Positions 39,905 to 51,538 of a stretch of DNA of 51,538 nt are shown in pieces (position 1 is the stretch's first letter; each line of letters opens with the position of its first letter). Position numbers and translations under genes: made by a program. This stretch comes from a bacterium (GTDB lineage: Bacteria > Vulcanimicrobiota > Vulcanimicrobiia > Vulcanimicrobiales > Vulcanimicrobiaceae): the NCBI GenBank assembly GCA_028869385.1, contig JAGWSR010000097.1, positions 1-51,538 on the forward strand, in the 5' to 3' direction. The notes under the pieces are model-generated. The model was not told the DNA's origin, ran no database searches, and saw only the letters and a program-made list of their open reading frames with translations.

Positions 39905-41173
39905 TTAGGGGTGAGCGGCGCTGATGGCGCCGATGAGCAGCGTGGTGAGCTGCTGGGTGCTGACTTCCATCTGCGAGAGCACGCTCGTGCCGACGCTGAC
40001 GAGGATCTGCTCCTTGGTGAACTCGGTCGTGGCGCTCGCGATGTTGAGATCGCGGATCGAACTCTCGCTCGCCACTTGGTTGACGATCTGAATGGAGGCG
40101 TCGTTCGCCTGCTCGCCGAGGGCGACTTGCTGCGCGCCGATCGAGGCCTCTTGCCCGGTGACCAGGTTCAGGGCGTTGTCGAGGCGCGTCTGCGCGGCGT
40201 AGTTCATCAGGTCGTCACCGAGGACGATCTCGTTGATTCCGAGCGCGGCGGTATTCGCGGCGTCGATCGAGACGGCGACGGTCGAACCTTCACCCGCGCC
40301 CGTGTTGACCGTGAGCGGTTGTCCGCCGCTCGCATACTGCGTCGGCTCCGTCACGACGTATGCGGTCTTGCCGACGTCGTTCACCGAGAGCGGCGCGGTC
40401 CACCCGAAGGCGAAGACGTACTGCCCGGCCGCGTTCTGTACTTGATAGTTGCCCGGCGGCGGCGGCGGGCCGCCGAATTCGACGAAGTAATTCGTTCCCG
40501 GCGTGACGTGAAAGACGTTCTGCTGCGCCGGTCCGAATGACGGATCGGGGCTCGACACCGTGAGCGTCACCTGCAGTTCGTTCGTCGTCGCATCGTACGA
40601 ATCGATGCTGAAGCTCATCTGCGCTTGCTGCTCGACGGGCGTATTCGACACGTAGGTGAGCGTCGGATCGGTGCTGATCAGCGTCTGCGTGGTTCCGCCG
40701 ACGGTCGGGTTCTGCTCGAAGATAAAGTACGGTGCCTGCTGCTGCGTGTTCGAGAGGCTCCCGTCAAGCAGGTGCAGTCCGTTGAAATTCGCGTTGCTCG
40801 CGATGCGGTTGATCTCTTGCGAGAGCTGGTCGATCTCGGTCTGCAGATCGGCGATGTTCTGCGCCGAGTTGAGATCGGAGCGCGCTTCGACCGTGAGCGC
40901 GCGCATGCGCTGAATGAGCGCCGTGACCGAATGCAGCGCGCTCTCCGCGACGGTAAGCGCGTTGCTCGCGGTCTGCACGTTGGTCGTGCCTTGTTGCAGA
41001 CCATTGCTGATGCTGCGCAGCGATTCGGCGATCGCGAGTCCGCTCGGGTCGTCCGCCGCCGAATTGATGCGCAATCCCGACGACAGCTGCTTGACCGAGT
41101 TCGCGAGATTCTGCTGATTGCGTCCGAGGTTGTACTCGACGGCGCCGAAGCTGTCCGATAGTCCGATGCGCAT
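39905..41173 (-). CDS. fliC: Flagellin
   Basis: 422 residues; filament subunit of the flagellum. The N-terminal D0/D1 region is well conserved: NQQNLANSVKQLSSGLRINS, AADDPSGLAIAESLRSISNG, and the segment LQTEIDQLSQEINRIASNANFNG. A variable exposed region at about 145-320 includes the run FGGPPPPPGNY. The C-terminal helix (EFTKEQILVSVGTSVLSQME, then QQLTTLLIGAISAAHP) corresponds to D1/D0. No other flagellar genes are in the window. A GAGGTG ribosome binding site lies about 7-12 bases before the ATG. Confidence 0.93.
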   Translation of the reverse strand: MRIGLSDSFGAVEYNLGRNQQNLANSVKQLSSGLRINSAADDPSGLAIAESLRSISNGLQQGTTNVQTASNALTVAESALHSVTALIQRMRALTVEARSDLNSAQNIADLQTEIDQLSQEINRIASNANFNGLHLLDGSLSNTQQQAPYFIFEQNPTVGGTTQTLISTDPTLTYVSNTPVEQQAQMSFSIDSYDATTNELQVTLTVSSPDPSFGPAQQNVFHVTPGTNYFVEFGGPPPPPGNYQVQNAAGQYVFAFGWTAPLSVNDVGKTAYVVTEPTQYASGGQPLTVNTGAGEGSTVAVSIDAANTAALGINEIVLGDDLMNYAAQTRLDNALNLVTGQEASIGAQQVALGEQANDASIQIVNQVASESSIRDLNIASATTEFTKEQILVSVGTSVLSQMEVSTQQLTTLLIGAISAAHP

Positions 41174-41443: not shown

Positions 41444-44400
41444 ATGGGTCGCCCATTGCAGGTCATTGGCCTGCTCCTCATGTTCATTGGCCTGTTTGGG
41501 CTGGCGCTGCTCTCGAGCGGAAACGCTGGCCTTGTCGCGCTCGCCGACCCGTGCGTCCCCGACAAGGCCGCACCTTCTCCGGCGGTCGAGGCGGTGGATA
41601 TCACGCGGGCGACGCCCGAGCCCTCGCACGGACCGGCCAAAGAGCTCGGCGCCTACCCGGTCTTCGCGCCGACCGATACCCTCGGGAGCCCGACCCCGTC
41701 GCCGACCCCCTCGCCGACGCCGACACCCGCGACCTCGCCGTCGCCCGCCGCGTCGCCCGGGATCGCCCCCTGCCCGACGCACCGCCACCACCTCTTCGGC
41801 GAGGGGCCGATCGAGATTTCCGGGACGGGCGGCGTGGATATCGGCACGCACCGATCGAGCGCCTACAGCTATAGCCAGCAGACCGACGCGGCGAACCTCT
41901 CGATGGCGCTGCACGTCGGCCGGCGCACCGACCGCAGCTCGCTCTCGTACGATCAGAGCATCGGCGAATCGGGCGGGACGTACAACATCGCGCAGGGGAA
42001 CCTCGTCTATAGTCAGCCGCAGTACTCGATCGGATACGGCATCGTCTCCGCGCCGTCGGACACCCAGCTCTCCTCCGGCTCGTTCAACCGCGGGATCACC
42101 GTTGGGATTCCGCGTGGACGCGACGAGCTCGACCTGATCCTCGCGCGCTCGCTCGGCATCAACGGCGAGAGCTACGGCGTGCTCGGCTTGCGGCACAGCG
42201 CGGCCTATGCGAAGGGCCTCATCTTTTCGCAGACGCTCTACCTCGCTCGCGGCGATCAGACCGGTGGGCGCAATACGACCTTCGATCTCTCGCTCGGCAA
42301 GTACCGGGCTGGCGCGACGTACCGCGCCGAGGCCGCGCTCAGCAACACGCGCGGCGTGAGCGGCGTGCCCGACGGCACGCGCGTCGCGTACGCGCTGCAC
42401 GCCGACTACACCGGCAACACCACGTCGACGAGCATCGGCTACTTCACGATACCGCTCGGGTACATCACACTCGGGCAGAACGAGTCGAGCCAGCAGAACC
42501 TGCAGTTCACCAATCGGCGCACGCTCTTCAAGCGCGGCATTCTGACGTTCGACTACGGCGATCTCTTCACGAACACGGCGGGCTCGCAGACGCAGACGCA
42601 GCACGAGGCGTTCAATCTCTCGCTGCCGTTCGGCACGAACATCTCCACGCAGACGCTCTTGAACTTCGCGCAGGGCGCGTCGGGCGGCGTGCGCACGAAC
42701 GAGCGCGACGCCGGCCTGTCGTTGAGCGAACTCGTGAAGAGCTTCTCGTTCACGCAGACCGTGCAGGGCAACGCCATCGGTGCCGATGACGGTACGCACG
42801 CCGCCCAGGTGGAGTACGCCTTCGGCCTGACCCATCCGCTCTTTCATGGCTTCCTGAGCCTGCTCACGCAGCACGGGCGCATCTACGGAAACGGCTCGAC
42901 GACCGACCAGCGCGATAACAATCTGAGCTTGATCGAACCGATCGGTCGCAAGGCGCAGATCGGCTACTCGATCGACGATTCCCGCATCGCAACGACGGGG
43001 ACGCTGGGCTCGGACTCATTCACGAACCAACTCCTCCAAACGTACAGCGTACAGCGACGCTTCTCGCCGGCGGTCGGCGCGCGCCTCACCTACGCCGTCA
43101 CGCGGCAGTCGGGCGTCTTCGGCGGCACGGCGCGGTCGTTCAACGTGGATATCATCGGCCCGGTCGCCTTCGGCGGCGCGGCCCGCTACACGGGGCGCCC
43201 CAATCCCAACCTGCCCGCGGTCGTCTCGGGACACGTGTACTTGCAGAACGAGGCGTCGGAGTACGGGCTGGTTGGGAACCGCGGCATTCCGAACGTGCTC
43301 GTGTCGCTCGACGGCGGGATCACGCAGCGCACCGACGCGACCGGCTCCTTCGAGTTCCGCTTCGTGCGGCCGGGGCGCCATACGATCACGATCGCGACCG
43401 GAACGCTGCCGGCGGGCATCATCCCCGATACCGCGACCCAGAGCTTCACGATTCAGGGCGGTCAGATCTTCAACGTGGACTTCTCGGCCGGGCTCTTCGC
43501 GGGCATCTCCGGACGGGTCACCGAGCAGCACGGCAGCGGCACGATCCCGGTGGGGAACGTGCAGCTGATCGTGGACGACCATCAGCGTGGCTACACTGCC
43601 TCGGACGGCACCTATCAGATCGGCCATCTCATGCCCGGCAAGCACGAGGTCAAGGTGGATCTCGACTCGCTCCCCTCGTCGCTGACGGTGACGGGCCCGG
43701 ACAAGCGCTCCGTGGATGTCGTTCAAGGAAGCCTCACGACGCTCGACTGGACGCTCGGGTCGCTCGGCTCCATCGAAGGGTACGTCCTCTACGCACCCGA
43801 CTCGGGCTTCGGCGACCTCACCGGCGCGCGCAACGTGTACGTGGTCGCGGAGCCCGGCGAGCACGCCGCCATCACCGACGAAGGCGGACACTTCCTCATC
43901 GATAACCTCCCCGCGGGGCAGTACACCTTGAGCGTCGATCAGGACTCGCTTCCGGACGGCCAAGCGGTGATCCAAGGACCCGACGGGCCGATCGACGTCG
44001 CCAGCAGCGATGCGGTCAAAGGCATCACCTTCAAACTCGGCGCGCAGGCCAAGCAAGTCGTCTTCACGTTCTCCGGCAGCGGCGCCGCCGTGCAGGCGAA
44101 CTTCGTTCCCGATCAGGTGCCGCCGGGCGGCCTCACCGAGCTGCAGGTAACGACGAACGCGAGCAAGGTGCGCAAGGTCACCGCGACCGGCGATCTCGGG
44201 AACCTCACGCTGCACTACGTTGCCGCGCGCAAGCTCTGGGTCGCGCGCGTGCACGCACCCGCGCTGCAGAACGGCGACTACGCGGAGCACGTCGATGTCG
44301 AAGGTGCGACCTCCGGCGGTGCCGATTCGACGCTCACCATCAGCAACGCGATTCAACTCGTCATCGCGCACGGCGTGCCGGCGCACCCGCATGCGGGCGA

Positions 44401-44602
44401 ACCCGTGCACGTGATCGCCAAGATCGCCGCCGATGTCGAGGAGGGCGACCTCGTCGCGCTCGAGGACGGGGAGCAAATCAAGCTTCCGCGGCCACGCGGG
44501 AACGTTTACTCGTTCGTGGTACATCCCAAGCGCTCGCTGCCGCTGCGCGGGATCATCTTCACGCGGCGAGGCGAGCGCATCCCGTTTGTCATCCAACCGT
44601 AA
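41444..44602 (+). CDS. Large outer-membrane barrel / Ig-repeat protein, usher-like by context
   Basis: 1052 residues. A signal anchor (5-30) is followed by a Pro/Ser/Thr linker with repeated SPTP (about 80-105) and a Cys/His stretch CPTHRHH. Residues ~115-590 have long alternating strands with many Gly, Ser, Tyr and Gln, as in a large beta barrel (RGITVGIPRGRDELDLILAR, for example). Residues ~595-850 hold three carboxypeptidase-regulatory/SdrD-like Ig modules: VSGHVYLQNEAS with VSLDGGITQRTDATGSFEF, SGRVTEQHGSG with YTASDGTYQIGHLMPGKHEV, and EGYVLYAPDSG with AITDEGGHFLIDNLPAG. A further all-beta C-terminal part follows. No FimD signature is obvious; the usher role is inferred from the downstream chaperone and subunit-like genes. 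Confidence 0.55.
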   Translation: MGRPLQVIGLLLMFIGLFGLALLSSGNAGLVALADPCVPDKAAPSPAVEAVDITRATPEPSHGPAKELGAYPVFAPTDTLGSPTPSPTPSPTPTPATSPSPAASPGIAPCPTHRHHLFGEGPIEISGTGGVDIGTHRSSAYSYSQQTDAANLSMALHVGRRTDRSSLSYDQSIGESGGTYNIAQGNLVYSQPQYSIGYGIVSAPSDTQLSSGSFNRGITVGIPRGRDELDLILARSLGINGESYGVLGLRHSAAYAKGLIFSQTLYLARGDQTGGRNTTFDLSLGKYRAGATYRAEAALSNTRGVSGVPDGTRVAYALHADYTGNTTSTSIGYFTIPLGYITLGQNESSQQNLQFTNRRTLFKRGILTFDYGDLFTNTAGSQTQTQHEAFNLSLPFGTNISTQTLLNFAQGASGGVRTNERDAGLSLSELVKSFSFTQTVQGNAIGADDGTHAAQVEYAFGLTHPLFHGFLSLLTQHGRIYGNGSTTDQRDNNLSLIEPIGRKAQIGYSIDDSRIATTGTLGSDSFTNQLLQTYSVQRRFSPAVGARLTYAVTRQSGVFGGTARSFNVDIIGPVAFGGAARYTGRPNPNLPAVVSGHVYLQNEASEYGLVGNRGIPNVLVSLDGGITQRTDATGSFEFRFVRPGRHTITIATGTLPAGIIPDTATQSFTIQGGQIFNVDFSAGLFAGISGRVTEQHGSGTIPVGNVQLIVDDHQRGYTASDGTYQIGHLMPGKHEVKVDLDSLPSSLTVTGPDKRSVDVVQGSLTTLDWTLGSLGSIEGYVLYAPDSGFGDLTGARNVYVVAEPGEHAAITDEGGHFLIDNLPAGQYTLSVDQDSLPDGQAVIQGPDGPIDVASSDAVKGITFKLGAQAKQVVFTFSGSGAAVQANFVPDQVPPGGLTELQVTTNASKVRKVTATGDLGNLTLHYVAARKLWVARVHAPALQNGDYAEHVDVEGATSGGADSTLTISNAIQLVIAHGVPAHPHAGEPVHVIAKIAADVEEGDLVALEDGEQIKLPRPRGNVYSFVVHPKRSLPLRGIIFTRRGERIPFVIQP

Positions 44603-44783
44603 GCCGAGCGTAAGCCCGTAGTTAAGTTTGGGCCCAAGACCCCTCCGGCGTCTCAAGCCCCCTCTTGCTTGCGCCGAATCAGGTACTACGGGACTGGAAA
44701 ACCTGGAATTCCTTGCCCCGGAACGGCTCGGATATATTGCCGGCCCGGATGATGCAATTGCACGAGAAAGGACTCTTAGTAAA
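44603..44783 (+). other. 181-base untranslated stretch before the first subunit-like gene
   Basis: No coding frame. It contains a hairpin near 44646-44676 (CGGCG...CAAG / CTTG...CGCCG), the palindromes GGAATTCC and TGCAATTGCA, and an isolated -10-like TATATT at 44733-44738 without a good -35. It matches no riboswitch I recognise. It may hold a separate promoter or an mRNA-processing site giving the subunit gene higher expression. Confidence 0.3.
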
Positions 44784-45548
44784 GTGAAACGAGCTCTAGC
44801 CTTAGTGGCGATGCTTGTGAGCGCGGCGGCAATGAGCAGCCCGGCGCTGGCAGTCGGCACGCCGCAGTACGGTTCGGTTAAACTGCAATGGAACGTTGCC
44901 GTTGCGCTGACCGCGACGATCCACACCAGCTATACGTCGGCCTTCGCCTATGCGACGCCGACCGGCAACCTTGCCAACCCCTCGGGTACCTGCGCGGCGG
45001 CTCCGGCCGGCGCGAACGCCGACCTGACGCTCGATTACGGTTCGATCACCCCGAGCCTCTCGGCGACGGTCGCCTGTACGTACCTCAACGCGGTCGGCGC
45101 CTCGCTGACCGATAACGACTCGGCCGGCGTCAAAGTCTATCAGGCATTCGACGCGGCGCTGCCCACCGGCATCAACGTCTGTGCGTTCCCGAACGCGGGC
45201 GCCTCGTTCCCGATGACCCCGACGGCGGCGATCACGCAGTCCACGCGCACGGGCACGGGTCCGGCGGTCTACGGCGGCGCTTGCGCGGCCGGCGGCTCGC
45301 TCGTTCCGACGGCCGCGGGCGGCGCGATCACCGGTACGGCCGGTACCTCGACGCAAGTCGGCGGCACGGGTGAAACTTACCAGAACGCGACGACCCCGTT
45401 CTCGATCGGCGGCACGAACATCATTTCGACCGCTGGTGCGAACACGACGGCCGTTCTCGCGGGCGAAGACCTGCAGCTGAACGTCGGCACGACCGCCGCC
45501 TCGGGCGCCGCGTCGGCCATCATGACCGTCCAGTTCATTCCCCAGTAA
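44784..45548 (+). CDS. Exported fibre-subunit-like protein (family A)
   Basis: 254 residues with GTG start. The signal peptide MKRALALVAMLVSAAAMSSP ends near ALA. Mature part begins QYGSVKLQWNVAVAL and is Ala/Thr/Gly-rich, all-beta in character. LDYGSIT is followed by LTDNDSAGVKVYQAFD, and the end is SAIMTVQFIPQ. The protein at 50485-51165 shares the same order of features (YGSTRLAWNV, VDFGNQV, TTNDGSGFTLYAEG and a terminal beta strand). This suggests a structural subunit polymerised at the cell surface. Cysteines 83, 112 and others could form disulphides. GAAAGGA lies 12 bases before the start. No named family is recognised. Confidence 0.7.
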   Translation: MKRALALVAMLVSAAAMSSPALAVGTPQYGSVKLQWNVAVALTATIHTSYTSAFAYATPTGNLANPSGTCAAAPAGANADLTLDYGSITPSLSATVACTYLNAVGASLTDNDSAGVKVYQAFDAALPTGINVCAFPNAGASFPMTPTAAITQSTRTGTGPAVYGGACAAGGSLVPTAAGGAITGTAGTSTQVGGTGETYQNATTPFSIGGTNIISTAGANTTAVLAGEDLQLNVGTTAASGAASAIMTVQFIPQ

Positions 45549-45585
45549 GCTGGGAACCTAATTCGGGAGAACAGCCGAGCCGAAT

Positions 45586-46383
45586 ATGTCGGGTGGTATG
45601 AAAAAGACCATAAAGGCCATGGCGGCAGCCGCGCTGCTGATTCTGGCGGCGGCATATCCGGCCTCGGCTGATCTCTCGTTAGACGTTGCTCCGGCGAAGC
45701 TGGAACTCCAGATCTCGCCGAGCACGACCCAGACGTTTCCGATCACGGTGCGCAACAGTGGGACGGCACCGTTGCACATCCAGGTCTCGCTCTCGGATTT
45801 CACGCTCACGCCGAGCGGAGAGTATCAGTTCGGCAAAGCCGGTTCGCATCCGTACTCGCTCGCGCACTGGCTCGGAGTGAATCCTCGCGAGTTCGACGTT
45901 CCGCCCAATACGGTGCAGCAGGTTCGCGTCACCCTCAACGTGCCGCAGCACGTGGCCGGTGAGTACTCGGGGATCATCTTCTTTACGACGCGCCCCGAGC
46001 GACACGAAACCCACGGCATCACGTTCGCGGAACGCGTCGCGGCCAAAGTGTACGCGTACACGCCGGCCTCGCTGCGGATCGACGGTGCCGTGGACGGTAT
46101 CGCGGTCAAGGAAACGTCGATCGGCGAACGCTTTTTGGTCGGATTCAAGAATCGTGGAAATGCGCACGTCTATGTCAACGGACGGATCGAAGTGCGTAAG
46201 GGCGATCAGACCGTCGCCCGCGTGCCGTTTCCACCACAGTTGCTGGTCGAGCGCGGAGAACGCCGCGTCCTCGAAGCGTACGTGACCGACAAACTTCCGC
46301 CGGGAACGTACACGGCGCTCGCGCTCGTCGATTTCGGCGGGCCGAATCTCGCGGGTGGGCAGACAACTTTCACCGTGAAGTAG
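45586..46383 (+). CDS. Periplasmic PapD-like (pilus-type) chaperone
   Basis: 265 residues. The signal peptide is MKKTIKAMAAAALLILAAAY-PASA; an ATG four codons further on (45598) is an equally good start. The mature N-terminal Ig-like domain has LDVAPAKLELQISPSTTQTF, ITVRNSGTAPLHIQVSLSDF, and the PapD-like segment VPPNTVQQVRVTLNVPQHV-AGEYSGIIFF. A second Ig-like domain has FLVGFKNRGNAHVYVNGRIE and ends PPGTYTALALVDFGG. Related proteins cap subunits in the periplasm by donating a beta strand. Its position between a subunit-like gene and a giant exported protein supports that job. The classical FGS/FGL loop cannot be assigned. Confidence 0.72.
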   Translation: MSGGMKKTIKAMAAAALLILAAAYPASADLSLDVAPAKLELQISPSTTQTFPITVRNSGTAPLHIQVSLSDFTLTPSGEYQFGKAGSHPYSLAHWLGVNPREFDVPPNTVQQVRVTLNVPQHVAGEYSGIIFFTTRPERHETHGITFAERVAAKVYAYTPASLRIDGAVDGIAVKETSIGERFLVGFKNRGNAHVYVNGRIEVRKGDQTVARVPFPPQLLVERGERRVLEAYVTDKLPPGTYTALALVDFGGPNLAGGQTTFTVK

Positions 46384-46411
46384 CGCTACGGAGAGCGCGG
46401 GAAAGATAAGG

Positions 46412-49400
46412 ATGTTTCGGAAGCTACAACTGGCCATAGTGCTCCTCGCGATCGCGACGATCGCCGGCGCGCTCGGCAGCGCCCGCATCGCCGGCGCCGC
46501 GCCTCCGCCGGTCGTGCACCCGATCGACGAGCCGCCGCACCCGATCATCCCGCACCCGATCGTGCGCCACACGCTCCCGCCGCTTCCCTTTGCCTCGGTC
46601 TCCCCGGTCGTGAGTCCGTCTCCCGGTGCTTCTTCAAACGGCTCCGGCCCGTCGGCGGGCATTCCCGCGGGCTTGACGCAGACGACGTGGCACATCGACC
46701 GTAATGCGCCGCGCCTCCATCACGTTCCGAAACTTTCGAAATTTCTCGTGAAGGTCGGCAAAGGGCAGTATGCCGTGCGCCCCACCTTCACCGGTGCGAT
46801 GGCTCGTTACGCCGCGAACGCCCATATGCGTCCGATGGCCGGAGACGGCAGTACGATCATCCTGACCGGCGATCAGTACAACTACTTCGAGAACGACATC
46901 ACGGTCTCGTACGGTACCGAGATCTACGTGCTCTGCGAGAACATGCCGTACGCCGATACGTACCGGTATTACGTCTATCCGCCCGACGGCAGCGGTCCGT
47001 ATTCGAGCGGCAACATCGGTACCTTCACCTCGAGCGGCAACCGCTCGTGTAATAACTACGGCATCTTCAATCTTTCGACGCCCTTCACGTTCAACAATCC
47101 GACCACGGTGAACGGCAGCGCCTACCCGGGCGTCTGGGTGATCGCGATGTACGACGTCAGCAAAGCGAAGATGATCACCGAGACGAACATCGTCGCGAGC
47201 GCATCGTTCAACTTCAACACGTATTCCGACGTCGCCGAATCGACGCCCGCGCTCGACTTTACGCAGGGTGGCACGATCGCCGTCGGTGCGACGGGCTTGA
47301 ATCCGAATCACTATTACGCCGTAGGCTGGGTGTACTCGGCGGGCAGTGGCTTGCCGTGCGAGTACTCGGTTCCGTCGGTTGGAACGGGCAAGACCGGCGT
47401 CTGCTTCACCGGTACCGTAACCGGCGTACAAGCCTTCAGCGGCAACTTCGAGCAGTGGTGGAACAGTTCGAGCTCGCCATCGACGACGAGCGCCCCGACG
47501 GGCACCTACGACGTCGAACTCTACGACGCGACGACCTCGGAGATGATCGGCCACCAACAGGTCTCGATGGAGCCGTCCACCTCGTCGTGGACCCTGACGC
47601 CGTATAATTCGAGCGGCGCCACGCCGCCGCCCGGACTCAGCTACGACAATATCTTTGCGACCGACGGGTTGAGCGATCAATCCACGACCGGACTCACCTA
47701 TGCGGCGAGCGGCCTCTCTTCGACCTCGAACGGACACACGATTCGCATCACCGTCAGCAACCCGAACGGCGTCGTGCTTAACGATCCGCTCGGCGGCGGC
47801 AGCGGTAACTATCCGGTGATGACGACGAATCCGACGACGACGCAGTCGGGCGGCGCCATCTCGAAGCAGGTCGCATTCCCGTACGACGCTACCGAACTCA
47901 TGGCGTACGGACCGACGCAGAATCCGTTCGCGCCAAACGTGCTCACCGCGCAACTCTACGACACCACCCTCGGGAGCGTGATCGCGAGCAAATCGTTCCA
48001 AGTGCTCGCGTACGCGGCGAACTTTTCTTGGGCCGGCGGCACCGTCGTGAACGCCGCGCCCGGTACCGGCGTCACCGAGTCGGTGACGATCACCAACACC
48101 GGCAATCAGAACTTCGGCACGTGGAACGGCGACGGCATCAACGGCGTCGAGATCGCGCCGAACGCGACGTATAACGAACAGCTCAATCTCGTCGATACGA
48201 CGGCCACCGATTCCGCCGGAAATACGTGGACGATCTTCAGCGTCGGCAGTGGTAAGAATCTCAAGATCTACGCCGAGCCGACGAGCCTCTCGTCGGGAGC
48301 GAACTTGCCGGTCGGCGGCACGCTGACGTTCAACATCAGCATCCAGGTGGCGAACGGACAGTGTAACTCGTCGCCGTGCTACTTCGACACCGGCATCCGC
48401 CCGCGCCACGGCGTGGCGTATAGTGGGCTCGACAGCGTCTCGAATGCGCTTGGCATCTTGGCCAACGGCGTCTCGCCGAGTTCGGTCGTCGCCACCGCCA
48501 CCTGGTCGGTCCAGAGCGAGAGCGCCACGGCGAACATGGCCGCGCGTCGCGCCGACTACGATCACCTGACCTACGTGCAAGGCACGGCGAACGCGCCGTC
48601 GAGCGACTACTACACGGTCAACTTGACGATCAATAACGCGTCGTCGCCCGGTGGCAACAAGTTGATGGACCTTAAGGTGGTCATGCCCTCGGTCCTCGAT
48701 ATGACGACCGGGGCTCCGACCGTGCTTTCGCCGGGCGGCTGGTCGGTGATCACGCAGACGGGAACGACGAACCTCGGCGGATCGAACGTGTTCGAATTGA
48801 CCTGCAATCCGAACACGAAGAACGGCTGCGGTATCTCGTCGGGTAGCTCGCAGACCTTCTCGCTCAAGTTCCCGGTCTTCACGGGTTCGTTCGTGGAGCA
48901 AGATACCGCGATGACCGCCAACTTCGACGGCGGCGGCTGCGGCAATTGCAACGCGACCTCGTACCCGCTGAATGCGACGAACACGACCGTCAACGGCATC
49001 GCGGGCATCACCAATACCGACTCGTTGATGCTCGGCGGCTTCTCGCTGAACCCGACGCTGATGTACATGACCTTCTCGCCGAGTACGGTCGGTACGGGCG
49101 TCGCGACCTCGGCGACGATGGTCTTCAACAACACCTCGACGAGCCAGGATCCCAATCCCGACTACGTGGATCAGGTGAACCTCGTCTTCCCGGCGGCGAT
49201 CGATCCGAGCAGCATCACGGTTCCGACCGGTTGGATTGCGACGCAGACGAGTACCAATAATTGGCAGATCGCGCTTTGCTCCGCGCCCACCAACACGACG
49301 CCGTGCTCGACGAACGAGACGAGCGCGGTCGCGCCCGGCGGCTCGCTCTCGATGACGCTCAACTACAACGCTCCCGGTCCGACCGCTGGCACCTACAACG

Positions 49401-50485
49401 TGAAGTGGTACGTGACCGGCGCGAACGGCGGCGAAGACACGAGCGCGATCACCGAGAACGCCTCGGTGACGTTCAGCGCGACCTCGGCATCGGTCAAATT
49501 TACCACGGTCAACGGCGTCGCCGTCCCATCGGGGACCGAGCCGCAGACCGGAACCGACGCGACGACGAACGGCTCGACCTTCGTTTATACGATTACCAAC
49601 ACCGGTGCCTCGACGTTAAACAACGCCACCATCACGATCCCGCACACCACGCGCGGCAACACGAGCGGTGGGGACGCGACGGGACAGTACTGGCAGCTTA
49701 CGAGCGCACCCACGGTCTCGCTGAGTTCGGGAACCGGCACCAGCGGAACGTGTAACGGCACGCTCAACGCCGCGCAATACACCAACCCCACGTCGAGCGC
49801 CGACGGAACGATTACGCTCAGCGGCTGCTCCGTGCCGACCAACGGCGTCATCACCGTCACGATGGTGTTGAAGACGCCGTACCTAATCGGCAGCGACTTC
49901 CTCTTCTCGTCAACCGTGAAGAGCGGCGCGACGCTGGTCTCGGCGCAGCCCGCCTATAGTTCGTCGAACGCGATGCTGATCGTGATCAACGGCATCCTGA
50001 CCGTCGTAACGCCGGGCAACGGCTCGGTCGGCGGCGCGAACGTGCTCACCGCTATTTCGGGCAGCGGCGCGACGCCTTCGACGTCGTGTACCGGCTGCTC
50101 GGTGACGACCGGCTCACCCGCGCTCGTTGATTTCGGCGTCTTTTCGGGAACGTTCACCACGACCGACATCGTGGACGCGAGCGTGATGTCCGACGCTAAT
50201 TCGCCGAACTCGTGGACGCTCTACATCTCGAGCTCCACGAACCCGGCGAACATGCTCTACAACGAAGTCGACTCGACGCATTCGTCGAGCGCGACGGGGC
50301 TCAGCTACAGCAACAACACGAGCTACACGCTGGTGCCCACGACCTCGCCGGGCACGCAGCTCTCCACCTACACCGGCACCGGACGTCACGCGCCGTCGGA
50401 TACCATCCAGAACTTCCAAGTGCAGACCGGCGGTAACACCTCGCCCGAGTCGGTCACCATCACCTACACGCTGGTATTCAACTAA
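46412..50485 (+). CDS. Giant exported surface protein, candidate fibre tip adhesin
   Basis: 1357 residues. The signal sequence (LAIVLLAIATIAGALGSARI) is followed by a Pro/His-rich spacer (VVHPIDEPPHPIIPHPIV) and then Thr/Ser/Asn-rich beta structure to the end. At least two CARDB/DUF11-like segments occur: VTITNTGNQNFG and YTITNTGASTLNNATITIP. Closely spaced cysteine pairs recur (CNSSPC, CNPNTKNGC, CGNC, CSAPTNTTPC, CTGC), likely disulphides. The last ~130 residues (VDFGVFSGTFTTTD, then SPNSWTLYISSSTN and a final VTITYTLVFN) parallel the small protein encoded next (VDFGNQV, FTLYAEGTN, VYVTYTAVGN). Two-domain tip adhesins end in such a pilin domain. The adhesin role is inferred. Confidence 0.65.
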   Translation: MFRKLQLAIVLLAIATIAGALGSARIAGAAPPPVVHPIDEPPHPIIPHPIVRHTLPPLPFASVSPVVSPSPGASSNGSGPSAGIPAGLTQTTWHIDRNAPRLHHVPKLSKFLVKVGKGQYAVRPTFTGAMARYAANAHMRPMAGDGSTIILTGDQYNYFENDITVSYGTEIYVLCENMPYADTYRYYVYPPDGSGPYSSGNIGTFTSSGNRSCNNYGIFNLSTPFTFNNPTTVNGSAYPGVWVIAMYDVSKAKMITETNIVASASFNFNTYSDVAESTPALDFTQGGTIAVGATGLNPNHYYAVGWVYSAGSGLPCEYSVPSVGTGKTGVCFTGTVTGVQAFSGNFEQWWNSSSSPSTTSAPTGTYDVELYDATTSEMIGHQQVSMEPSTSSWTLTPYNSSGATPPPGLSYDNIFATDGLSDQSTTGLTYAASGLSSTSNGHTIRITVSNPNGVVLNDPLGGGSGNYPVMTTNPTTTQSGGAISKQVAFPYDATELMAYGPTQNPFAPNVLTAQLYDTTLGSVIASKSFQVLAYAANFSWAGGTVVNAAPGTGVTESVTITNTGNQNFGTWNGDGINGVEIAPNATYNEQLNLVDTTATDSAGNTWTIFSVGSGKNLKIYAEPTSLSSGANLPVGGTLTFNISIQVANGQCNSSPCYFDTGIRPRHGVAYSGLDSVSNALGILANGVSPSSVVATATWSVQSESATANMAARRADYDHLTYVQGTANAPSSDYYTVNLTINNASSPGGNKLMDLKVVMPSVLDMTTGAPTVLSPGGWSVITQTGTTNLGGSNVFELTCNPNTKNGCGISSGSSQTFSLKFPVFTGSFVEQDTAMTANFDGGGCGNCNATSYPLNATNTTVNGIAGITNTDSLMLGGFSLNPTLMYMTFSPSTVGTGVATSATMVFNNTSTSQDPNPDYVDQVNLVFPAAIDPSSITVPTGWIATQTSTNNWQIALCSAPTNTTPCSTNETSAVAPGGSLSMTLNYNAPGPTAGTYNVKWYVTGANGGEDTSAITENASVTFSATSASVKFTTVNGVAVPSGTEPQTGTDATTNGSTFVYTITNTGASTLNNATITIPHTTRGNTSGGDATGQYWQLTSAPTVSLSSGTGTSGTCNGTLNAAQYTNPTSSADGTITLSGCSVPTNGVITVTMVLKTPYLIGSDFLFSSTVKSGATLVSAQPAYSSSNAMLIVINGILTVVTPGNGSVGGANVLTAISGSGATPSTSCTGCSVTTGSPALVDFGVFSGTFTTTDIVDASVMSDANSPNSWTLYISSSTNPANMLYNEVDSTHSSSATGLSYSNNTSYTLVPTTSPGTQLSTYTGTGRHAPSDTIQNFQVQTGGNTSPESVTITYTLVFN

Positions 50486-51165
50486 TGCGCACGCTACGAC
50501 GCCTCCTCGGATTCGGAATCCTCGCGGTCGCGCTCGCGATCGCGCTCGGCGCCCACCCTGCGAACGCGCAAAGTTACGGCTCCACGCGCCTCGCGTGGAA
50601 CGTCACGCCGATCGTGACGCTCGCGCTCACGCCGAACTACCAGACGGGCTTCGGCCCGCAGGGCGGCGCGGGTTCCGGCTCGACGCCCGCGCCCGGCTCG
50701 GGCGCCGTCCTTGGCGGCGGCGCGGTGGACTTCGGCAACCAGGTCGTTCAAGGGTACCAGTATCTCTATAAGTACGCCGTCCAAGCGGCGGTAACGACCA
50801 ACGACGGCAGCGGCTTCACGCTCTACGCCGAAGGCACCAACATCAACGACACGACGCTCGGCTCGACGGTGCCGATCAATCAAATTCTCTACTGGCTCGT
50901 CTCGAGTGGCGGCAACTCGCCGTTCTCGCCCGCGACGCCGTTTACGGCCACGACCTCGCCGACGAGCGCGGGATGCGGCGGCCAGTGTATCAATTACGCG
51001 GGCTCTCCGCCGGGAACGGCGATCGTGTGGCACTATCCGAGTACGACGATCGGTCAGCCCGGAAATGCGGTCGCGCAGGGCTACGACTATCAACTTCGCT
51101 TGGGCAGCGTCTCGAACGCCGACAGCTTCAGCGTGTACGTCACCTACACGGCGGTGGGAAATTGA
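50485..51165 (+). CDS. Exported fibre-subunit-like protein (family B)
   Basis: 226 residues. A signal peptide (LLGFGILAVALAIALGAHPANA) is followed by QSYGSTRLAWNVTPIVTLAL, closely matching the mature start of the protein at 44784-45548. Then come a Gly/Ser/Pro linker, GGAVDFGNQVVQGYQY, NDGSGFTLYAEGTN, a CGGQC pair and the terminal strand DSFSVYVTYTAVGN. The ATG overlaps the stop of the giant protein by one base, and its own stop overlaps the next start, indicating one operon. Probably a structural subunit; no named family recognised. Confidence 0.68.
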   Translation: MRTLRRLLGFGILAVALAIALGAHPANAQSYGSTRLAWNVTPIVTLALTPNYQTGFGPQGGAGSGSTPAPGSGAVLGGGAVDFGNQVVQGYQYLYKYAVQAAVTTNDGSGFTLYAEGTNINDTTLGSTVPINQILYWLVSSGGNSPFSPATPFTATTSPTSAGCGGQCINYAGSPPGTAIVWHYPSTTIGQPGNAVAQGYDYQLRLGSVSNADSFSVYVTYTAVGN

Positions 51166-51538
51166 AAAAGTTCGGCCTCGTCCTCTTCGCCTTCGCGCTC
51201 GCGCTCGCGCTCGGCTCGCAGGCGCGCGCGATTCAGATTCCGGTCGCGACCAAGCAGATCTCGCTCTCGTTCTTGATCACGCCCTCGCCCATCGTGTACG
51301 TGCCGAACTCGGCGAACGGTGCGGTGCGCGAGGTTGCGCTCACCGCGCGTCAGGCGGCAGCGGGTCTGGCCTTCGACGCATCGTCGCAACTCGCGCGCGC
51401 CGGCGATGCGGTGCTTGCGTACGATCCGATCTCGCTCGGCGATATGGTCGCACAATCGAATCCGCAGGGCTCGGCCAAGGTGCAGTTCACGGTCAAGGTG
51501 GATCCGACGTTCGTGTACTTCCACATCGTCCCGGGCAG
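51162..51538 (+). CDS. Exported protein, possible further fibre subunit (3' end outside window)
   Basis: The TTG start overlaps the preceding stop (TTGA) and gives MKKFGLVLFAFALALALGSQ, a clear signal peptide cleaved near ARA. The mature part begins IQIPVATKQISLSFLITPSP and includes VQFTVKVDPTFVYFHIVPG at the window edge. About 125 residues are visible. It lacks the full motif set of the two preceding subunit-like proteins but has similar composition and position. Confidence 0.6.
   Translation, partial: MKKFGLVLFAFALALALGSQARAIQIPVATKQISLSFLITPSPIVYVPNSANGAVREVALTARQAAAGLAFDASSQLARAGDAVLAYDPISLGDMVAQSNPQGSAKVQFTVKVDPTFVYFHIVPG

Follow-up and report, generated by a model that had tools for sequence, protein, structure and literature searches.

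The stretch of DNA studied here (the window) is one entire contig of 51,538 nucleotides from Candidatus Eremiobacterota (WPS-2), a little-known phylum of soil bacteria. From position 41444 to the end of the contig it carries six consecutive genes on the forward strand that, in our estimation, constitute a divergent class of the chaperone-usher (CU) pathway (probability around 0.82) and that very probably build a surface fibre in the manner of Escherichia coli pili. We rate the locus as a CU variant because it is homologous to this pathway and yet fails several of its defining features. The class is apparently undescribed; a literature search, with subscription papers mostly outside its coverage, found no published account of such a locus. 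The six genes had been singled out in a preliminary description made from the sequence alone, and in each case the reading frame is preferred over the opposite ones by a codon-usage model. The features are listed below, together with the names used for the proteins.

41444..44602, forward strand: USHER, usher-like outer-membrane protein of 1052 aa with signal peptide, linker, barrel and C-terminal immunoglobulin (Ig)-type modules
41810..43156, forward strand: predicted beta-barrel of USHER, residues ~123-571, with 24 strands of at least 9 residues (AlphaFold2, AF2)
43217..43738, forward strand: Ig-type modules 1-2 of USHER, residues 592-765 (hhalign against usher C-terminal domains)
43739..44599, forward strand: further C-terminal Ig-type modules of USHER, residues 766-1052 (Pfam CarbopepD_reg_2 at 797-831; AF2 strands)
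44784..45548, forward strand: SUB1, exported subunit of 254 aa with four family-invariant Cys (alignment; hhalign to SUB2)
45586..46383, forward strand: CHAP, two-domain periplasmic chaperone-like protein of 265 aa (alignment; hhalign)
46412..50485, forward strand: BIG, exported protein of 1357 aa with 10 conserved Cys, proposed tip adhesin/stalk (20-member alignment)
50081..50482, forward strand: C-terminal subunit-like domain of BIG (hhalign to SUB1)
50485..51165, forward strand: SUB2, exported subunit of 226 aa (alignments; AF2; Foldseek)
51162..51538, forward strand: SUB3, exported protein, ended early by the contig end (complete relatives at the same place)
39905..41173, reverse strand: flagellin gene, divergent neighbour outside the fibre machinery (Pfam Flagellin_N/C; conserved association)

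Homology of USHER and CHAP to chaperone-usher components

As an independent test of homology, comparison profiles were built from ushers and chaperones that occur in the phylum itself and are confirmed by Pfam. Pfam Usher is present in 23 of 148 phylum genomes, and none was found in the window's own genome. In hhalign, USHER matched these ushers at 96.8% (E 3e-10, 422 columns), compared to 2.7% for the reversed profile and at most 0.3% for 20 column shuffles, while profiles of other barrels from the same phylum reached 0.1% (Omp85) and 0.5% (TonB-receptor). The bulk of the signal came from residues 592-765, which aligned to the C-terminal domains of the ushers and by themselves (USHIG, modules 1-2) gave 94.7% (E 6e-8, 174 columns; reversed 0.2%). 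The preliminary description had noted three carboxypeptidase-regulatory/SdrD-like modules in the 1052-aa protein and took these as a trait foreign to ushers. The modules are indeed found by Pfam (CarboxypepD_reg three times/SdrD_B, and nothing else), but judging from the profile alignments modules 1-2 appear to correspond to the usher C-terminal domains. Likewise, the reported lack of FimD/PapC signatures holds for the Pfam and NCBIfam models, yet the homology becomes detectable via the ushers of the phylum itself.

The AF2 model of USHER (m0c1075bb522b, 21 sequences, mean pLDDT 76) showed 24 long strands (at least 9 residues each) between residues 123 and 571, followed by Ig-type modules. When compared to the PDB with Foldseek, the top seven matches were all FimD, and FimD or PapC made up 12 of the top 14 (best E 4e-14). 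Taken together, profiles and model indicate that USHER is an usher, with a predicted outer-membrane barrel and C-terminal domains. The strand number and the ranking agree with the 20-26-strand barrel that had been anticipated, but a PapC-type plug, expected along with it, is missing. The largest barrel insertion in the model, and the sole one of more than 13 residues, comprises 39 residues (177-215, after strand 3), and because no insertion exceeds this size a PapC-type plug is absent from the model. The usher N-terminal periplasmic domain is absent as well, since only a short stretch separates the signal peptide from strand 1, namely the Pro-rich linker already described (residues ~36-122, variable and rich in Pro, Ser and Thr). 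The sizes of both parts in FimD and PapC are general knowledge. Furthermore, USHER carries Ig-type modules past the two usher C-terminal domains, up to residue 1052.

The second line of homology concerns CHAP, for which a PapD-like nature had been proposed and is borne out: its alignment with the phylum's PapD_N-positive chaperones takes in both domains and scores 96.1% (E 3e-9, against 0.6% for the reversed profile). These chaperones in turn matched the FimC-type chaperones of E. coli at 91%, whereas CHAP did so directly at 10%. A proline in domain 1, reported to be the sole residue invariant among CU chaperones (PMC4654587), aligns with P100 of CHAP, which is kept in 18 of 18 members. At the position aligned with the carboxylate-anchoring Arg of archaic chaperones (CsuC Arg89), 11 of the 18 members have Arg.

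The exported proteins

The profiles of SUB1 and SUB2 are homologous (hhalign 99%, E 6e-18). Neither matched a pilin family, which agrees with the earlier remark that the subunits are unlike known pilins, and BIG had no Pfam match. The C-terminal ~130 residues of BIG aligned to SUB1 at 87.8% (E 3e-6, SUB1 columns 78-230; reversed 0.5%), and this match leaves out the N-terminal segment of SUB1. A G-x-V-x-x-K-W-type motif occurs in the N-terminal segment of around half of the SUB1 and SUB2 proteins by a strict pattern, and near the C-terminal domain in one of 20 BIG proteins; the motif count was used for SUB1, SUB2 and BIG only, being too loose for CHAP and USHER. By analogy, the layout of BIG would be that of a CU tip adhesin, in which the subunit domain receives a strand without donating one.

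The AF2 monomer of SUB2, the single small protein for which a model was made (pTM 0.72, moderate confidence), has a beta fold in which the conserved N-terminal segment is unordered and unpaired. Its best PDB matches in Foldseek, all weak, were TLP-1, the archaeal thread (Saci_0406) and the bundling pili of Pyrobaculum, so the model resembles filaments that polymerize by donor strands and have no usher. Such archaeal threads and bundling pili, as well as TasA, have no chaperone-usher pair (PMC9715654). Next came CfaB, SafA, CsuA/B, FimF and PapA, again weak. The presence of CfaB among the better CU pilin matches is a likeness to the alternative CU systems (CFA/I, ECP), unlike which the locus lacks a TcfC/CooC Pfam match. 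SUB3 was placed among the subunits by position only.

Distribution and related loci

The six-gene locus is conserved across Eremiobacterota and is not a chance arrangement. Full-length relatives of USHER (28-51% identity) were found in around 28 of 98 related genomes, and the gene order, for which conservation in relatives had been anticipated, is largely kept in around 25 genomes. In these neighbourhoods USHER, SUB1 and CHAP are followed either by BIG, SUB2 and SUB3 or by SUB2, SUB3 and BIG. When 84,980 species genomes were scanned for CHAP, 28 loci were recovered, all from metagenome-assembled genomes (MAGs) of Eremiobacterota or from MAGs titled just 'bacterium', the nearest named loci being Eremiobacterota; as the scan used short peptide patterns, distant relatives in other taxa may escape it. 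The genome G054 holds a second copy (L108:6217-16245), in which two subunits and two chaperones alternate and are followed by BIG and USHER, and a specialization of the chaperones is possible there. A frame of ~705 aa, found at G000:C98:20506-20859 and similar places, matches USHER residues 533-659 (the barrel end and the first Ig module) and has counterparts in many relatives.

The genes of the locus overlap or are separated by 0-40 bases, except for around 180 bases ahead of SUB1. The likely start of SUB1 is the GTG at 44784, which opens a signal peptide (VKRALALVAML...), making the mechanical open reading frame of 306 aa at 44628 too long. Of SUB3, 125 aa are visible before the contig end, compared to ~220-250 aa elsewhere (221-249 in complete relatives). 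A scan for promoters and terminators gave fewer sites than in shuffled sequence and therefore added no operon signal. The flagellin gene lies directly upstream and divergent in 25 of 27 loci, and a shared regulation of flagellum and fibre is possible. A flagellin gene also precedes the usher gene in genomes of the f2 family, whose remaining neighbours differ.

A shorter, CU-like class (class II, L099-L107, e.g. L105:4087-9028 and L102:9167-13194) combines small subunits and a relative of CHAP with a protein of 700 aa. Its chaperone matched CHAP at 99.8%. The 700-aa protein has no Pfam family above cut-off, and its usher-like C-terminus aligned to profile columns 627-784 of USHER at 96%.

Alternative readings, proposed assembly and implications

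Several observations weigh against a CU assignment. None of the 22 USHER members matched Pfam Usher (PF00577), all of their Pfam matches being carboxypeptidase-regulatory/SdrD-type and similar Ig modules. More generally, no Pfam or NCBIfam match to Usher, PapC_N/C, PapD or pilin models was obtained in any member searched, and direct sequence searches of Pfam, NCBIfam and the PDB returned Ig-module or WxLIP-type matches only. The barrel part of USHER alone matched the ushers of the phylum at 25%, in the same register, and a direct profile comparison of USHER with the ushers of E. coli gave 3%, i.e. no similarity. Given the pTM of 0.44 of the USHER model and the query TM-scores of its Foldseek matches (0.24-0.30, rmsd ~20 A), closure of the barrel is unreliable; the poor superposition is as expected from the badly placed domains of the model. 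In addition, the archaic anchoring Arg is replaced by Gln in 7 of the 18 CHAP proteins, the matches of the moderately confident SUB2 model to CU pilins have E values of 0.05-0.8, and the match of SUB3 to SUB1/2 (5-10%) does not establish homology. Compared to the type 1 and P pili of E. coli (FimD/PapC, FimC/PapD), the locus is alike in the best structural matches of USHER and in the logic of a two-domain tip adhesin, but lacks direct profile similarity for both usher and chaperone. Comparison with FimA-type proteins of E. coli likewise revealed no direct similarity.

The locus could also be an archaic CU operon of known type (Csu-like) that has merely drifted in sequence. With the archaic systems (Csu/CupE; PF00577, PF00345 PapD_N and PF05229 SCPU) it shares a barrel usher with C-terminal domains, a two-Ig chaperone, small exported subunits in one operon and a detectable homology of usher and chaperone. 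Moreover, ordinary archaic-type loci (Usher, PapD_N, SCPU) exist in the phylum (L114-L125), and their chaperone and usher are homologous to those described here. Nevertheless, a drifted archaic copy is unlikely because the archaic loci sit at separate places in the same genomes (G011, G032, G036, G038 and G053 are among those holding both kinds) and because the profiles of the subunits described here do not resemble those of SCPU subunits (0.1-1.5%). The missing N-terminal domain and PapC-type plug, the extra C-terminal Ig modules, the giant 1357-aa protein, the chaperone without PapD_N match and the existence of class II, which is related but has a 700-aa protein of its own, set the locus further apart.

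A different explanation starts from CHAP, which is matched by WxLIP_PGBD in 17 of 18 proteins (best 2e-7) and by PapD_N in none. The WxLIP proteins (DUF916/DUF3324) belong to the WxL system of Bacillota (PMC10599100), and a Gram-negative counterpart of that system would have a WxLIP-like CHAP display and stabilize WxL-like subunits at the cell surface in a static complex, with the barrel as anchor or exporter and no polymeric fibre. In hhalign, CHAP matched WxLIP (L162-L170) at 96.9% (reversed 0.3%) and the class II chaperones did so at 97.3% over 226 columns, with reversed profiles at 0.2-0.3% across these comparisons; WxLIP did not match the FimC-type chaperones of E. coli (0.3%). In WxL clusters, too, a single two-Ig protein goes together with small as well as large partners, and according to prediction one strand of WxLIP completes the sandwich of the WxL domain (PMC10599100), the same act as that of a CU chaperone. 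On sequence grounds CHAP thus seems to be a two-domain chaperone that stands about as near to WxLIP as to the PapD-type chaperones. As WxL domains, however, SUB1, SUB2 and BIG are ruled out (0.2-4%), and SUB3 reached 43% over just 25 columns. CHAP has no C-terminal membrane helix but ends in an Ig strand (...TTFTVK) without hydrophobic tail, and the usher homology has no equivalent in WxL clusters. We therefore regard a WxL counterpart as quite improbable.

The least convincing explanation, that USHER is an unrelated porin, adhesin-anchor or two-partner-type secretor with a barrel that merely resembles ushers and with neighbours forming an S-layer/adhesin array, fits the low model confidence, the common occurrence of carboxypeptidase-regulatory modules on other outer-membrane proteins and the appearance of LptD, porins and Ig chains at weaker E in the Foldseek list, but is very improbable since ushers rank above every other barrel, the profile match is collinear over barrel and C-terminal domains, same-phylum barrel profiles reach only 0.1-0.5% and CHAP is independently homologous to CU chaperones. 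The chaperone-usher interpretation of the preliminary description is supported, and none of the three outcomes that it named as refuting was encountered.

For a CU pathway of this composition we infer the following course of assembly. In the periplasm CHAP would bind SUB1, SUB2 and probably also SUB3 and the C-terminal domain of BIG, completing the Ig-like fold of the subunits with one strand of its own. USHER would form the pore, of 24 strands, while its C-terminal Ig modules on the periplasmic side would take over the subunits in complex with the chaperone and keep hold of the growing end. BIG would exit first as the tip adhesin, its C-terminal domain accepting a strand and having no donor segment, and SUB1 and SUB2 would follow, the conserved N-terminal segment (G-x-V-x-x-K-W-type) of each inserting into the previous subunit. 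Considering that this usher has neither an N-terminal domain nor a PapC-type plug, recruitment would rest with the C-terminal modules of USHER, and gating may be provided by the ~40-residue segment after strand 3 or by other means.

More tentatively, the loci of Eremiobacterota (this class and class II) might represent a separate CU branch that links the PapD-type chaperones to WxLIP. An ancestral strand-donating two-Ig chaperone would then have acquired different partners later, namely an usher in diderms but a membrane helix in monoderms, and the pili of this branch would be gated without usher N-terminal domain or PapC-type plug.

The named models miss this probable fibre system in a little-studied phylum, which implies that such systems may be undercounted. 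An usher without N-terminal domain and plug would provide a natural test of what these parts are for. Finally, since CHAP resembles WxLIP and the PapD-type chaperones almost equally, both the origin of the CU pathway and the possibility that WxLIP acts as a chaperone become directly open to testing.

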